Source: Candidatus Gastranaerophilales bacterium
GTDB taxonomy: Bacteria > Cyanobacteriota > Vampirovibrionia > Gastranaerophilales > Gastranaerophilaceae
Direction: 5' to 3'
Length of the DNA stretch: 32,755 nt
Assembly (NCBI GenBank): GCA_944323335.1
Contig: CALUSB010000020.1
Location: 1 to 32,755, forward strand
Positions within the stretch are counted from its first letter, which is position 1. The number at the start of each line of letters is the position of its first letter. Below the pieces are notes generated by a model. That model was not told the DNA's origin, did no database searches, and worked only from the letters and a program-made list of their open reading frames with translations. Below, piece after piece: positions 4,769 to 20,857 of the stretch. The translations under genes were made by a program, and so were the position numbers.

Positions 4769-5230
4769 ATGAAAAACGAACTTTCAAGAATAGATTACAT
4801 AAGAGAGCTTATTAAAGACTGCAGGTACGACGAAGCACTTGAAGCGCTTGAAGTTGCGCAGGCAAAAGAGCCTGACAATTGGGAATTGTTTTATGAATTT
4901 GCAAGGCTGCAGTTTGAACTGGGTGATTATGCAAGCGCTGTAGCCAACTATGAAGAGCTCATTGAACACCACCAAAGTGCAATTATTTACTATAACTTAG
5001 GTGAAGCGTATGAATGCAACAATCAGCTTGATAAAGCAATAGGTTCATACCTTAGAGCCCTTACGGTTAATGAAAAATTTCCTTTCGCATATAAAAAACT
5101 CGGTATGCTTTTTATGGCAAGAAACGACATGGAAAGCGCAAAAGAATATTTTGAAGACTATCTGAAATTAGACGTGGCGCAAGATGAAAAAGAAAGCGTA
5201 GAAAAAGTTCTAAAAAGGATAGAAAAATGA
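4769..5230 (+). CDS. TPR-repeat protein
   Basis: 153 residues, all-helical, with about four tetratricopeptide repeats. Recognisable units include 'ALEALEVAQAKEPDNWELFY', 'GDYASAVANYEELI', 'YYNLGEAYECNNQLDKAIGS' and 'PFAYKKLGMLFMARNDMESA', with the canonical small and aromatic residues in place. There is no signal peptide or membrane segment, so a cytoplasmic protein-protein scaffold is likely. The partner is unknown. The stop codon overlaps the start of the glutaredoxin gene (ATGA), so the two are translationally coupled and probably functionally linked. There is no Shine-Dalgarno; a TATAAT eight bases upstream suggests leaderless initiation. Confidence 0.85.
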   Translation: MKNELSRIDYIRELIKDCRYDEALEALEVAQAKEPDNWELFYEFARLQFELGDYASAVANYEELIEHHQSAIIYYNLGEAYECNNQLDKAIGSYLRALTVNEKFPFAYKKLGMLFMARNDMESAKEYFEDYLKLDVAQDEKESVEKVLKRIEK

Positions 5231-5478
5231 ATGTAGAAATTTATACCGTTGATTACTGCCCGTACTGCAAAAAAGCACTGGCATTTTTAAATGAGCATAA
5301 TGTTGAATATACTCAGCATAAAATCGACAAAGACGAGGCGCTATGGAGAGAAAAACTTGCTCATATGTATGATATTAAAGGCGATGTCACCGTTCCTCAG
5401 ATTATTATTGACGGCAAAAGAATAGGCGGCTATAGCGACTTAATGGAAGCATACAACAGCGGCTGCATTAAATTTTAA
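5227..5478 (+). CDS. grxC: Glutaredoxin (dithiol, CPYC)
   Basis: 83 residues, typical for a GrxC-type dithiol glutaredoxin, a small cytoplasmic thiol-disulfide oxidoreductase that reduces protein disulfides and glutathione mixed disulfides. The active site C11-P-Y-C14 sits after the first strand. The cis-proline motif 'TVPQIIIDG' and the C-terminal 'IGGYSDL' glutathione-binding loop are intact. The ATG overlaps the TPR stop by four bases and is preceded by AAGGAT at 5215-5220 with six-base spacing. This is a clear operon-internal ribosome binding site, in contrast to the leaderless-looking gene in front. No terminator follows; a small ORF at 5567 may continue the transcript. Confidence 0.92.
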   Translation: MNVEIYTVDYCPYCKKALAFLNEHNVEYTQHKIDKDEALWREKLAHMYDIKGDVTVPQIIIDGKRIGGYSDLMEAYNSGCIKF

Positions 5479-5488
5479 TTGTAAATTT

Positions 5489-5499
5489 TTTGTAACAAA
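5489..5499 (+). repeat. Dyad motif TTTGTAACAAA, copy 1
   Basis: An 11-mer with 5-bp arms around a central A, lying between the glutaredoxin stop and the small ORF. The same motif recurs, in one or other orientation, at 6221-6231 and 31125-31135, all between genes. It could be a regulator site; low complexity makes chance possible. Confidence 0.25.
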
Positions 5500-5566
5500 A
5501 TCAAACGCACTCTAAAGTAAAAAAGCGCATGTGTCGATATTTTAGGCATAGGATAAGGATGTGTTT

Positions 5567-5722
5567 ATGCTTAAAAAATTATCAAGACCGATGAATAATT
5601 CTCTCGAGTGCGTTGATTTAATGCTAAAAGGTGCTAAAAAACGCCGCAGACTGGCATCCGCTGCAATAAACTCTGCAAATACGGGTCTTGGTTTTGCGCC
5701 AAACATAAAGCTTGTAAAATAA
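5567..5722 (+). CDS. Small basic 51-residue protein, unrecognised
   Basis: A short ORF from ATG 5567 to TAA 5720-5722. It is preceded by AAGGA at 5555-5559 with seven-base spacing, an almost ideal ribosome binding site. The protein starts MLKKLSRPMNNSLE, carries a strongly basic patch (K-K-R-R-R at about residues 24-28) and ends in a Gly/Asn-rich tail. It has no membrane segment or signal peptide. The reading frame fills the gap between glutaredoxin and the convergent divisome gene exactly, ending one base before it. The function is unknown; the basic patch would suit nucleic acid or ribosome binding, but that is speculation. An in-frame GTG at 5561 is too close to the AAGGA to be the start. 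Confidence 0.5.
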   Translation: MLKKLSRPMNNSLECVDLMLKGAKKRRRLASAAINSANTGLGFAPNIKLVK

Positions 5723-5723
5723 G

Positions 5724-6182
5724 CTAAAGAGGGCTGTTTTCGTTCAGCATAAATTTGCTCGCAACTTTTTGTTCAAAAAAGTAAACAACCTTTTCCCTAA
5801 AAGTTTTTGGCACAACTTTTTCTTTCTCGGGTTCGTTTATAATAACCAGAACCTCGTTTTTTGCAGCCATTTTAAGGTTGTTTCTGGCTATTGACTCTAC
5901 TTTTTCCATAGAGTTAAAATTCTCAACTTCTTTTTTTAGATTTTTATTTCTCTTTTGAGCCACCTCAAGCAAATGACGGGATTTTACAATTTTGCTTTGG
6001 TATATAACAATTTTTGAAATATTTAAAAGCGCACTGTAGCTTATCTGAAAAACGCACAACATAAGGACAATGGTCAAAAAAGAATGATAAAAGCGAACTT
6101 TTGTATTCTTCTTTTTTTGATTTTTTTGAACCTTTTGCTTAAGGTTGTCCTTGCTTAATGTTTTTACATTTTCCATCTGCAT
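5724..6182 (-). CDS. FtsB/DivIC-like septum formation protein
   Basis: 152 residues. A Lys/Gln-rich cytoplasmic N-terminus (1-30) is followed by one membrane helix (about 33-55), a coiled-coil (about 60-92) and the motif 'VESIARNNLKMAAKNEVLVI' (95-114). That motif matches the 'IE-IAR-LGM-PGE-VV' end of FtsB/DivIC/FtsL-type proteins. These bitopic proteins form the FtsQBL complex that activates septal peptidoglycan synthesis at midcell. I cannot decide between FtsB/DivIC and FtsL by eye. A C-terminal tail of about 35 residues is longer than usual. Two ATGs (6182, 6176) are possible; there is no Shine-Dalgarno, and a TAAAAT six bases upstream of the first favours leaderless initiation there. 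Confidence 0.75.
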   Translation of the reverse strand: MQMENVKTLSKDNLKQKVQKNQKKKNTKVRFYHSFLTIVLMLCVFQISYSALLNISKIVIYQSKIVKSRHLLEVAQKRNKNLKKEVENFNSMEKVESIARNNLKMAAKNEVLVIINEPEKEKVVPKTFREKVVYFFEQKVASKFMLNENSPL

Positions 6183-6188
6183 AGACTG

Positions 6189-6217
6189 ATTTTAGCGCGG
6201 TTAAGGTTTTTTTTCCA
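6189..6217 (-). promoter_or_regulatory. Promoter of the FtsB/DivIC-like gene
   Basis: On the minus strand TGGAAA (6217-6212, 4 of 6 to TTGACA) is followed after 17 bases by TAAAAT (6194-6189), and then after six bases by the ATG at 6182. This spacing predicts a leaderless transcript. It lies in the 42-bp gap after the asparaginase gene, so the divisome gene need not depend on the upstream operon. Confidence 0.45.
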
Positions 6218-6220
6218 CAC

Positions 6221-6231
6221 TTTGTTACAAA
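6221..6231 (-). repeat. Dyad motif TTTGTAACAAA, copy 2
   Basis: The reverse-strand copy of the 11-mer. It sits four bases upstream of the putative -35 of the divisome gene and overlaps the last codons of the asparaginase gene. Confidence 0.25.
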
Positions 6232-7169
6232 AAAGAAAAATTGCAAAAATATTCGCCTACTTTTTTGCCCCAATCGTTAAAAAATGAGCTTGGTGAGGGG
6301 TTTTTATCTATCCAAGAGAGTTGATAAAGCGCATTTAGAGCAATTATTCTCCTTTGTACGTTATTGTTTTGCGACATTTTTATAATCAAAATCTTATCTT
6401 CTTTTATATTATAAACAAGCAAAAATCCGCCTGCACCGACTTTTGCCACAAGGTTTTTATTACCCAGTTCAACTATTTCGCTATCCAGCCTGTCATATCC
6501 GCCAAAAACGTAAGGGTTGTTGACAATCGCTTCTTTAATAAAAGAATATTTTTCATCATTAAAAAAATTAAAAAACATTCTTGCAATTTCATCAATTCTA
6601 AGTGCAAAAACAGGCGCACCGCAACCGTCAAGAGAAACTTTAATATCGTCTGCACCGCTTAAAAACAAATGTCTTTGTTTAATTAGCTGCTGCAAGGGGT
6701 GCTCAAAATCTAAATAATCATCCAAACTCCAGCCCCTTGCTTTTGATATACAAAGCATAAGGGCGTGTTTTGCACTGCAGTTGTGATAAATTTCTTTTTT
6801 ATCCTCGCCAAAATCTCTTTTATCAAGAGCAGTAGCTTTTGGACATTTTAGATACGATTCGTCAAGCCCTGCTTTATTTAAAATGGATTTGACAAGCTCA
6901 CAATGCCTTTTTGTACCGCTATGTGAGGCACAACAGATTGCAATTTCTTCCTGAGTAAGACCTAAAACATTGTGCAGATTAAAATCCTCAATAAGACTGG
7001 CCTGAATTGGCTTTGAAAGCGACCTGAGGTAAAATCGCGCATTATTATCGTCACCAAAAGATTTTAACCTTTTAAAATTTTCATATAAAAAAATAAAGCC
7101 AAAATACTCTTCGTCAACCACTTCTTCTCTATAAGAAGACAAAAGAAGATTAGGGGAAATACTGCGCAT
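6225..7169 (-). CDS. Asparaginase II family protein (PF06089-like)
   Basis: 314 residues, matching the family length. This family hydrolyses L-asparagine to aspartate and ammonia in characterised members and is unrelated in sequence to the E. coli AnsA/AnsB type. Family blocks are visible in order: R49-S-x-x-K-P-x-Q near the N-terminus, A-S-H-S-G (81-85), 'HNCSAKHALMLC' (129-140), 'HP-Q' (157-160) and 'DGCGAPVFAL' (181-190). There is no signal peptide, so it is cytoplasmic. It follows the 7172-7924 gene with two bases between them, and its Shine-Dalgarno (AAAGGA) is formed by the end of that gene, so the two are co-transcribed. Substrate is inferred from the family only. Confidence 0.85.
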   Translation of the reverse strand: MRSISPNLLLSSYREEVVDEEYFGFIFLYENFKRLKSFGDDNNARFYLRSLSKPIQASLIEDFNLHNVLGLTQEEIAICCASHSGTKRHCELVKSILNKAGLDESYLKCPKATALDKRDFGEDKKEIYHNCSAKHALMLCISKARGWSLDDYLDFEHPLQQLIKQRHLFLSGADDIKVSLDGCGAPVFALRIDEIARMFFNFFNDEKYSFIKEAIVNNPYVFGGYDRLDSEIVELGNKNLVAKVGAGGFLLVYNIKEDKILIIKMSQNNNVQRRIIALNALYQLSWIDKNPSPSSFFNDWGKKVGEYFCNFSFL

Positions 7170-8047: not shown

Positions 8048-8476
8048 ATGGGACTCGATGGAATTTCTCTAAACCAGTTAAGAATAACTCAAGAAAATAC
8101 TTCAAAAGAGAATACACTTAATTCTCAAATGCTTGCTAACATTGGAAGCGGCTCAAGAAGCGTCAATTCTCTTGATAAAAAAGGTGCAATAGACACCGAC
8201 GACAAAGAAAATACATCTTTTTTCGGCGGCGACAGTTCAAGCGAAGAAGAACAAGAAGAACAAAAAGAAGAAACCGAAGAAAAGCTTGATTTTTCTAAAA
8301 TTGACCTTTCAAATAAAGACCTCTATGAAATAAAAGTAGATGAAAACAAAGGATGTTTGTCTATATACAACAAGCAAGAAGATAAAACCGTACAGGAAAT
8401 AACTCCGCATGAACTTTCTTCGCTTGTGGACAGCCTCAAAAATCCAGGTGGAATTCTTATAAACAAAAGGATATAA
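8048..8476 (+). CDS. FlaG-like flagellar protein
   Basis: 142 residues. Residues about 1-85 are polar and disordered with a Glu-rich run. The C-terminal part (about 92-142) has the FlaG pattern: a 'Y-E-I-K-V-D-E-N-K-G' strand, 'L-S-I-Y-N-K', then 'V-Q-E-I-T-P-H-E-L' corresponding to the usual V-I-R-Q-I-P-x-E, and a closing Gly-rich segment. In characterised bacteria FlaG influences filament length and is encoded beside fliD and fliS, as here. The long acidic N-terminal extension is not typical. The start has GGAAG about seven bases upstream. The next gene, fliS, begins six bases after the stop. The FlaG call rests on C-terminal pattern and context. Confidence 0.65.
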   Translation: MGLDGISLNQLRITQENTSKENTLNSQMLANIGSGSRSVNSLDKKGAIDTDDKENTSFFGGDSSSEEEQEEQKEETEEKLDFSKIDLSNKDLYEIKVDENKGCLSIYNKQEDKTVQEITPHELSSLVDSLKNPGGILINKRI

Positions 8477-18760: not shown

Positions 18761-18790
18761 AAAAAAGTAAGTTGTATAACTTACTTTTTT
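18761..18790 (+). terminator. Bidirectional terminator
   Basis: AAAAAAGTAAGTT (18761-18773) and AACTTACTTTTTT (18778-18790) form a perfect 13-bp stem with a GTAT loop. A T-tract ends the stem on both strands, so it can serve both the TPR gene (+) and the converging 677-residue gene (-). Confidence 0.85.
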
Positions 18791-18823: not shown

Positions 18824-20857
18824 TTATTTCATTTTTCCTAAGAAATACTGATATGTTTGTTTTTCAATCGGTTTGAGATTGTTTAATATACTATAATCAG
18901 GTATTTGCACATCGGGATTTTGATATTTCTTTTGAAGAGTATTGTTATCCTTCAAGTATTTTCTTTTAATAATAAGTTCGTTTATTTTTGGCAAGCCAAA
19001 GCCTAAGAACGCTGTAACAATAGCCAAAGATACTGTTTCAAATATGGCATTAATCTTGTTGCCGAACTTAAGGAGCGGGTTCTTTTTCGTATCATTCAAT
19101 ACATTAAGCAGCTCGTCAACCGCATTTTTATCAATTTTGTCTGAAGAATCTGCAAGAACTTTTGCCAAATCATCTACCTTCAAGTCTTTTTTCTCAATGA
19201 CATCACCAAAGACTTTTTTAGCAGCATTGTACAACAATGGTTCTGAGCCCTTTTGAGGTTTTGCGTCAATGTGTAATAACTTGTAGAGATTTCCTTGCTT
19301 TTCTTGAGTATCTTTAAAGAATCTCATTAGTTCATCCATATTTGCAAAAGACGACATTTGAGCCGTGTTTTGTTTTTTAGACAACACCTGAACACCATGG
19401 TCGGGACTCAGGAAGTTTTTGAATTTTTGCACAAAATTTGCATTATCAGGTAAAATTTTATTTGTCAAAACAATACCGCTGCCCTTTGAAGCCTTATGCG
19501 CCATAACAGCACCAAGACCTTTCATGGCAAAAAGTATTGTAAGAATTGTTGTAACATCACGTCTTAAGTTATTTGCGGTTTCATCCCACTGTATAGGGCC
19601 GCCACTTTTCTTTGAACTTTCAATATCACGTTTTGTAGACTCAATTACACGCGGAATTAATGTAAAGCAAGTAATTAAAGTATAAAACATTGGACGGGCG
19701 ACATTTATCCAATCGCTCTCAAGATTTGCGGCAGCCTTTGATAATTTACCCGTAGCATCAGGGGAAACCTGCTTACCTAAGTCCGCCATCATTTTGGATA
19801 TTCCGCCGCCCGAGAAATTTACATCTTTTTTCTCGGTACTATCTTGCTTAACTTCACCCTTAAGTTCGCTTGCTTTTTGTCTTACAGGGTCGGTTTCAGG
19901 ATTTGTTTTACCTATTGTATAAATTTTTGGAATAAACCACATGGCAAGAGCTGTAAACACGCCCATTGCAATGTTTGTTGCAAATCTGCCGCCCATTCTT
20001 TTGTTGGTAAAGTTTTCAAGAAATTCAGACGACAATTCGCCGCCGGATTTTTTGAGCATATTATAAAAGTCATCCGAGTACTTGCCCATTCTGCCTATCA
20101 AATCATCAATAGGTATTTCATGTTTTGCAGCACTTTTGGCATCTGTTACATCAGTTATCAGAGCGCTTAAAAAGTTAGGATAACCTTTTGTGTTTGCTTT
20201 TTTGTCTTTTACAAAAGTATTAACAATACCCTGCAGTATTTCTTCCCTGCTCTCAGGCATTGATTTACCTGCAATGTTATTTATAAGCCCTTTTTTGGGG
20301 GCATTTTCCATTTTTATAATTCTTTTCACGTAGTCTGCAACATCAATTTCCTTACTTGGTGCATCAAACTTTGTGAATGCCTTGTTCAATACATTTGAAT
20401 AAAATGTTTCTTTAAATTTTTCTATAGAACTTGTATCAATTTTATCAATATTGTTTGAGATAATGTTACTGAAGTCTTTTATAGTCTGAACAGGCACACC
20501 GTTGGCTTTACCTGCGTATTTCATAGAACCGTACAGAACCGCACCGGGTACTACAAACATACTGGGGCCGGTTAAAAACTCTCTTAAACCGTTTTCCATA
20601 ACTGCAACCCAGTTATTTTTGCCGGTATATTCCTTGCCCACGTTCCTTGCAGCCCAAGTTCTCGGTATGTTTGTACCAAGCATATCTTGAACGGTAAAGC
20701 TTGCCGCAAGTCCGCCCCTGTCTACACCTTCCCAAAATTTAATAAGTCCGTCCGTTACACCTGTAAATGAGGTATCGGATTTTATGGTGTTCAAATACTT
20801 GTTGTTGTTGCTTTTTACGGCTCCATGTGCCGAAGTTTCAATGTTTCTAACTTTCAT
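18824..20857 (-). CDS. Large unrecognised membrane protein with F-T/S-G motifs
   Basis: 677 residues; I do not recognise the family. The N-terminus is Asn/Ser-rich with the short motif S-F-T-G (30-33), and N-F-S-G-G-G recurs at 347-352. I associate such F-T/S-G motifs with proteins of gut Melainabacteria, from memory only. Hydrophobic segments lie at about 98-115, 296-313, 388-403, 436-453 and 620-638, with long polar helical stretches (130-290, 320-385, 455-615) between them. It has no signal peptide. The start has AGAGG five bases upstream. It is a single gene between a bidirectional terminator and a 368-bp gap. Membrane remodelling or surface roles are possible, but nothing in the sequence decides. 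Confidence 0.75.
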   Translation of the reverse strand: MKVRNIETSAHGAVKSNNNKYLNTIKSDTSFTGVTDGLIKFWEGVDRGGLAASFTVQDMLGTNIPRTWAARNVGKEYTGKNNWVAVMENGLREFLTGPSMFVVPGAVLYGSMKYAGKANGVPVQTIKDFSNIISNNIDKIDTSSIEKFKETFYSNVLNKAFTKFDAPSKEIDVADYVKRIIKMENAPKKGLINNIAGKSMPESREEILQGIVNTFVKDKKANTKGYPNFLSALITDVTDAKSAAKHEIPIDDLIGRMGKYSDDFYNMLKKSGGELSSEFLENFTNKRMGGRFATNIAMGVFTALAMWFIPKIYTIGKTNPETDPVRQKASELKGEVKQDSTEKKDVNFSGGGISKMMADLGKQVSPDATGKLSKAAANLESDWINVARPMFYTLITCFTLIPRVIESTKRDIESSKKSGGPIQWDETANNLRRDVTTILTILFAMKGLGAVMAHKASKGSGIVLTNKILPDNANFVQKFKNFLSPDHGVQVLSKKQNTAQMSSFANMDELMRFFKDTQEKQGNLYKLLHIDAKPQKGSEPLLYNAAKKVFGDVIEKKDLKVDDLAKVLADSSDKIDKNAVDELLNVLNDTKKNPLLKFGNKINAIFETVSLAIVTAFLGFGLPKINELIIKRKYLKDNNTLQKKYQNPDVQIPDYSILNNLKPIEKQTYQYFLGKMK

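Follow-up and report, generated by a model that had tools for sequence, protein, structure and literature searches.

The window analyzed here, a DNA stretch of 32,755 nucleotides from a Candidatus Gastranaerophilales genome (G000), carries on its minus strand an open reading frame (ORF, 18824-20857) that encodes, from an ATG start, a protein of 677 amino acid residues. The Gastranaerophilales inhabit the animal gut; they are related to cyanobacteria but do not photosynthesize, and many of their proteins have no known role. The protein has five 19-residue segments with a mean Kyte-Doolittle hydropathy of at least 1.2, starting at residues 94, 292, 383, 435, and 604, and exactly two F-[ST]-G motifs, F31-T-G and F348-S-G, referred to below as tags. 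The features of the locus are as follows.

18824..20857, minus strand: ORF, apparently the fused N+C form of a membrane-protein family; 269/286 genomes of the order match
20759..20857, minus strand: N-terminal leader, residues 1-33, with an MKVRNI start, a polar linker, and the candidate tag D-T-S-F31-T-G33; F31 nearly invariant
20522..20578, minus strand: hydrophobic segment 1, residues 94-112, mean hydropathy 1.23
19928..19984, minus strand: hydrophobic segment 2, residues 292-310, mean hydropathy 1.51
19808..19816, minus strand: internal candidate tag F348-S-G350 at the junction of the halves; F348 and G350 nearly invariant
19655..19711, minus strand: hydrophobic segment 3, residues 383-401, mean hydropathy 1.22
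19499..19555, minus strand: hydrophobic segment 4, residues 435-453, mean hydropathy 1.79
18992..19048, minus strand: hydrophobic segment 5, residues 604-622, mean hydropathy 1.90
18830..18856, minus strand: C-terminal peptide TYQYFLGKM behind a variable tail; related endings in most alignment rows, by eye
18761..18790, no strand: A+T-rich inverted repeat with a T-run between convergent ORFs, a possible terminator, by eye

The upstream ORF on the same strand, which we take to be RibF-like, ends 369 bases from the gene, and the next ORF is convergent. The gene plausibly forms its own transcription unit, as the initial annotation of this stretch had proposed. A pattern scan did not report the inverted repeat at 18761..18790, and the promoter- and terminator-like sites that it listed were not in excess over shuffled sequences.

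A clear match to a known family had been named as an outcome that would overturn the initial annotation; we found none above cut-off in Pfam and none in NCBIfam. The length, the five hydrophobic segments, the two motifs, and the lack of a known domain were all as described there. When all 21 rows of a profile of window-protein homologues (A1) were scanned against Pfam, with cut-offs given for the first row only, no consistent family was obtained, and the best match (E 0.00055) came from a single member. The best match in a PDB sequence search was no better than E 0.22. An AlphaFold model built from 11 close sequences had a mean pLDDT of 51.8 and a pTM of 0.36; Foldseek against the PDB gave nothing at E ≤ 0.001 (best 0.69), an outcome of little meaning because the model was so poor. 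Six candidate stretches were checked for viral relatives of the protein, and none was related. The best four hydrophobic segments averaged 1.61, compared with 2.02-2.75 in 31 polytopic proteins from the same sample, a contrast favored by the choice of those proteins for having four strong segments. Strong segments of the kind found in ordinary polytopic inner-membrane proteins of the same proteome were not observed in the window protein.

To describe the distribution of the family, single-sequence and profile searches were compared. The single-sequence search matched 269 of 286 genomes of the order Gastranaerophilales (E ≤ 0.001) and found one copy in the protein's own genome. The A1 profile matched 107 of 244 genomes of the phylum and, among the matches listed, every genome belonged to the order. 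Ten close relatives lay on contigs named Candidatus Gastranaerophilales (seven), Candidatus Galligastranaerophilus (one), and uncultured bacterium (two). The A1 profile also detected one remote paralogue in the same genome (G000:C2), with a weak E of 0.004. Comparison of the C parts of the two proteins gave an hhalign probability of 93% (E 2.8e-7; HMM E 7.2e-6), and comparison of the N parts gave 20% (E 0.0012). The paralogue family was present in 14 of 60 genomes of the class at E ≤ 0.001, including all 12 genomes of the order sampled, and several class genomes had two neighboring copies. A profile of the N half that included outgroup rows (A3, with rows from families f45 and f50) gave matches at E ≤ 0.01 in 23 of the 60 class genomes. 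These were every sampled genome of the order (12), of f45 (seven), of f49 (three), and of f50 (one). No match at this threshold was found in f8, f44, f46, f47, or f48, families from which A3 holds no rows. In the genomes that we sampled, this membrane-protein family is limited to part of the class Vampirovibrionia. The initial annotation had raised the possibility of an expanded lineage-specific family; lineage specificity held, as did the lack of a known family, whereas expansion did not, and the count of paralogues that it suggested gave one copy and one remote paralogue rather than a large family, which rules out an expanded paralogous family.

Two or more F-[ST]-G motifs were present in 3.5% of shuffled versions of the window protein, so their number by itself says little, and the evidence that counts is conservation. 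Alignment of 21 homologues revealed that F31, F348, and G350 were nearly invariant. At the N-terminal site, F-x-G was found in 14/21 homologues and F-G-[NAI] in 7/21 (F-G-N in five, F-G-A, and F-G-I), the window family being the least strict of the four tagged families described below. At the internal site, F-x-G was found in 20/21; the exception, L013, had S-F-G-M there, and its separate E-F-D-G was not counted. Loss of the motifs among homologues, also named beforehand as a refuting outcome, was thus not what the alignment indicated. The linker before the internal motif was somewhat more alike than shuffled sequence (0.48 vs 0.42). An E-F-[DEN]-G in the core of the C half was conserved in most rows and looks structural.

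In several genera of the order, the N and C halves matched separate adjacent ORFs. In a member of another family of the order (L204), the N-half ORF (5025-6050) carried A-S-F-K-G, and the C-half ORF (6050-6928) had no F-x-G near its start. The free C half of L008 started MQINSI...NTSFKGG, and those of L022 and L030 had no F-x-G near the start. Outside the order, G462 (L120/L203) and G451 (L118) had four genes arranged as two divergent pairs, namely the window-type N and C halves and two paralogue-type parts. Among the eight proteins of these two genomes, four had a strict F-x-G near the N-terminus (IPRFQG, PVKFSG, TPRFQG, and VRFGG), three had a near form (PRFGL, PRFQA, and PRFGY), and one had neither. 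Since the halves are separate elsewhere, the internal motif of the fused protein corresponds approximately to the site of a second protein's leader. These findings suggest that the window protein is the fused form of a moderately hydrophobic two-part membrane protein which, in deeper lineages, has one gene per half, usually with its own N-terminal tag. A duplicate origin of the two halves from each other was unsupported (hhalign probability 5%). A diadenylate cyclase (DAC) gene adjoins the four-gene cluster in both genomes (L118:1986-8481 in G451 and L203:3092-9041 in G462), and the cluster of G451 also lies about 6 kb from FliO/P/Q/R genes.

We further examined, by eye, 26% of the G000 genome (420 called ORFs) for tagged leaders. 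Nine other proteins with such leaders were found (L043:2542, L043:6616, L043:13467, L045:12751, L046:9087, L048:13818, L052:9859, L054:2277, and L057:3459, the last with F-C-A). Three of them scored above the Pfam cut-offs, as an AAA ATPase, an SLT transglycosylase, and an HD-domain protein. Matches that stayed below cut-off were AAA-like (the second such case), MORN-like, and subtilase-like, and L043:2542, L046:9087, and L052:9859 had no Pfam match. In our reading only, the 1321-residue L046:9087 resembles a glycosidase. In the SLT protein (L048:13818), a signal-anchor-like hydrophobic stretch follows the tag and precedes the SLT domain; no homologue was found at E ≤ 1e-15 in 59 other genomes. 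The HD-domain protein (L057:3459) had homologues in 47/117 genomes, mostly matching its C-terminal half; its ORF, L057:3459-6539 (G000:C17), matches the end of very large ORFs elsewhere, with open frames of up to 3331 residues. Three tagged ORFs, that of the AAA ATPase among them, are found in about 12.4 kb at L043:2542-14951 (G000:C3).

The conservation of the motif was then compared among families, from which rows with at least 70% core identity to a kept row were excluded for the identity and residue counts only. F-x-G was found in 21/22 members of the AAA family (F at residues 38-66), the remaining one having A-F-G-N; in 14/14 members of the 1321-residue family with the N-terminus in hand (F at residues 12-32), a count that excludes L192 and L195, whose N-termini were not reached; and in 18/18 members of the paralogue family, the outgroup L095 and L096 being excluded. 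The linkers between start and motif were barely more similar to one another than shuffled sequence, with 0.373 against 0.352 in the AAA family, 0.407 against 0.352 in the 1321-residue family, 0.402 against 0.375 in the window family, and 0.382 against 0.351 in the paralogue family; core identity in the four families was 0.40-0.43. The residues around F were alike in all four: N was the commonest at -3, V/I/P/T were common at -2, S was the commonest or joint first at -1, and T/K/G were common at +1, while +2 was G by row selection in these counts. As judged from these alignments, the motif is kept within otherwise drifting linkers and is common to unrelated families, and in these respects it behaves like the candidate signal proposed in the initial annotation. 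The tag is approximately N-[VIPT]-S-F-x-G, a short linear motif in a disordered leader that often starts M-[KRQS]-[IV]-x-x-[IV].

To examine the tag across proteomes, motif counts were made in four genomes. The ratio of F-x-G in the N-terminal zone to that in the protein body was 0.91 in G000, 1.13 in G064, 1.25 in G451, and 1.37 in G295, the photosynthetic control, so the loose count does not show the tag. The following rules were tuned while the data were in view. The start pattern and F-x-G taken jointly gave p 0.052 in G000, and a refined pattern gave p 0.003 in G000, 0.015 in G064, 0.18 in G451, and 0.18 in G295. Comparison of the joint rule with internal Met controls gave 6/402 vs 5/1318 (p 0.025), 7/348 vs 3/1337 (p 0.001), 5/234 vs 7/829 (p 0.1), and 3/351 vs 3/843 (p 0.24). 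The six-residue core, defined without the window family, had ratios of 2.5 (p 0.06), 4.1 (p 0.02), 2.0 (p 0.28), and 1.1 (p 0.65). Tag enrichment across proteomes was nil to moderate, at best a weak to moderate signal, and perhaps about 2% of proteins are tagged. The case for the tag is made by conservation within families, not by proteome counts, and we consider it very probable that the tag is real.

Flagella have been described in this group (PMC3787301, in excerpt), and only a subset of flagellar genes was reported in six of nine early Gastranaerophilales genomes (PMC4040986, in excerpt). Matches to FHIPEP (FlhA/SctV) were present in 146/146 sampled genomes of the order, counting any FHIPEP match and not the second FlhA in particular; those of G045 and G122 were weak (E about 1e-47). 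In the genome of the window protein, a second FlhA has genes of the FliH and FliF families and an SLT gene as neighbors, and the homologous locus of G001 carries FliE (L225). A second FlhB, a second FliR, and a second-kind FliQ were found in stretches elsewhere in the same genome. Loci of this second, type III-like export apparatus include L200:11824-18440 (G000:C24), L242 (G000:C1), L058:17124-18227 (G000:C18), and L118:14472-17073 (G451). Some genomes, G001 and G064 among them, carry the second-kind FlhA and, by score, lack a flagellar one.

In a tree of 41 FHIPEP proteins, made by a quick method and subject to a long-branch warning, the second FlhAs grouped as one clade with an SH-aLRT of 99. 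Its 17 rows belong to the order and to f45, f49, and f50; flagellar FlhA and the FlhAs of f8, f46, and f47 fall outside it. The second FlhA and the N-half family occurred in the identical 23 of 60 class genomes, 15 of these assigned by their place in the tree (each of the 11 from outside the order and 4/12 from inside) and eight by score and matched range. The 37 negative genomes comprised 13 that did not match FHIPEP and 24 that did; of the latter, 12 were included in the tree, where they fell outside the clade. Should these families be one branch of the class, the coincidence would count as one event, not 23. Tagged ORFs were not enriched at second-apparatus loci (5/226, compared with 4/246 at other FHIPEP loci), counted with a pattern that misses four tag-like starts at L228. 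There, at L228:1-3381 (G442), four neighboring ORFs near a second-type FlhA were seen by eye to have the starts LLFGG, ITFAG, PRFGQ, and PQFSG. L242:7097-8098 and L241:7223-8701 matched the C-terminal half of FHIPEP only (profile positions about 309-656). Each of the 12 genomes of the order in the class sample had such a match, with partial matches also in G425, G444, G416, and G463, and the protein is possibly a soluble FlhA-C-like receptor.

The tag was compared with known signals. Among the papers listed by literature searches, which for the most part did not extend to subscription journals and bioRxiv, none was concerned, judging by title and opening of the abstract, with such a tag or with type III secretion in this lineage. 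RxLR, PEXEL, and PEP-CTERM likewise combine a short motif with a variable stretch on unrelated proteins of one lineage; they differ in the motif itself, the tag of the window family also has an internal copy, and no processing enzyme has been identified for it. The recognition motif of the early flagellar gate has the form F-x-x-x-hydrophobic, and neither window tag shows it, since F31-T-G-V-T35 and F348-S-G-G-G352 have T35 and G352 at the hydrophobic place. In excerpts on the early flagellar subunit FlgD (PMC8983047), the second motif lies at residues 36-40, and 26 residues separate the two signal elements. The window leader is like those of early subunits in having a small nonpolar start (MKVRNI, compared with SIAV in FlgD), a variable stretch, a second motif, and an unfolded leader (PMC8983047, in excerpt). 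It differs in the internal copy of the tag and in the short separation of the 1321-residue family: set against a separation of at least 26 residues, F lies at 38-66 in the AAA family, at 31 in the window protein, and at 12-32 in the 1321-residue family. Type III-exported membrane proteins are reported to have moderately hydrophobic segments (PMC6110835, in excerpt), and the window protein resembles such type III/IV membrane-inserting substrates in carrying moderately hydrophobic segments behind an unfolded leader. Unlike them, the window family occurs nearly throughout the order instead of patchily, and its export would be a prediction. We know of no eukaryotic target for it, in which it again differs from those substrates.

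The conservation of N-[VIPT]-S-F-x-G and its presence on unrelated proteins suggest that it would act as a targeting or docking signal, which we consider likely. More tentatively, it may bring its carriers to the second type III-like export apparatus, our leading mechanism, which we hold at somewhat under even. It would do so perhaps through a chaperone or the soluble FlhA-C-like protein, and the window protein would be exported to, or work in, a membrane within that pathway. Export is favored by the shared distribution of the second-FlhA clade and the N-half family, by the presence of FHIPEP throughout the sampled order genomes, by segments that are only moderately hydrophobic, as in excerpts on type III-exported membrane proteins (PMC6110835), and by the likeness of the leader to early flagellar subunits as excerpted (PMC8983047). 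It is disfavored because one event may account for clade and family coinciding, because tagged ORFs are not enriched at the second-apparatus loci, and because a purely N-terminal signal leaves the conserved internal copy unexplained. Further points against it are that F in the 1321-residue family lies closer to the start than the separation given for FlgD (PMC8983047, in excerpt), that tagged proteins include cytosolic kinds (AAA and HD), and that the FHIPEP matches of G045 and G122 are weak; the nil to moderate proteome-wide enrichment also weakens it. The fuller proposal, in which the tag would be the address label of an undescribed Vampirovibrionia pathway read by the second apparatus, which even members without a flagellar FlhA would retain, with the window family and the paralogue as its membrane complex, is rather doubtful as a whole.

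Nearly as likely as export is docking without export, in which the tag would bring proteins of the cytosol and the inner membrane together on one shared partner at the membrane's inner face, with the window protein and the paralogue as scaffold; we regard this too as tentative. It accommodates the conserved internal copy at the junction of the halves, the tagged AAA and HD proteins, the signal-anchor-like stretch between tag and SLT domain in L048:13818, and the absence of tagged-ORF enrichment at the second-apparatus loci, whereas the partner was not found, the segments of the window protein are weaker than those of polytopic proteins in the same sample, and the distribution shared by the family and the second FlhA speaks against it. 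The motif might instead be structural, capping or packing against the following domain or remaining from common descent of the leader, with no receptor. The weak proteome-wide enrichment and the conserved, structural-looking E-F-[DEN]-G of the C-half core agree with this; it is nevertheless unlikely, as the following domains (AAA, membrane protein, and 1321-residue protein) have no visible similarity, the linker from start to motif is of very variable length, and the four families agree in the residues around F. It is very improbable that the two F-[ST]-G motifs arose by chance in an otherwise ordinary inner-membrane protein specific to this lineage: such a pair is not very rare in shuffles, but the motif is conserved among homologues and recurs in families unrelated to this one, which contradicts chance.

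A common tag, if real, would predict from sequence which unrelated proteins share a destination, and it would be a defined peptide for fishing out the partner. If that partner were the second export apparatus, a use would be given to the remaining "flagellar" genes in members reported without a complete set.

Two minor observations were also made. The endings of most members of the window family are alike by eye (TYQYFLGKM, TMAGFLNK, and similar) and are possibly another short motif. Elsewhere in the window, at 8048-8476, a long polar stretch in an ORF of 142 residues is followed by N-T-S-F-F-G-G, which may be a tag; the ORF just after this one is presumably FliS-like.
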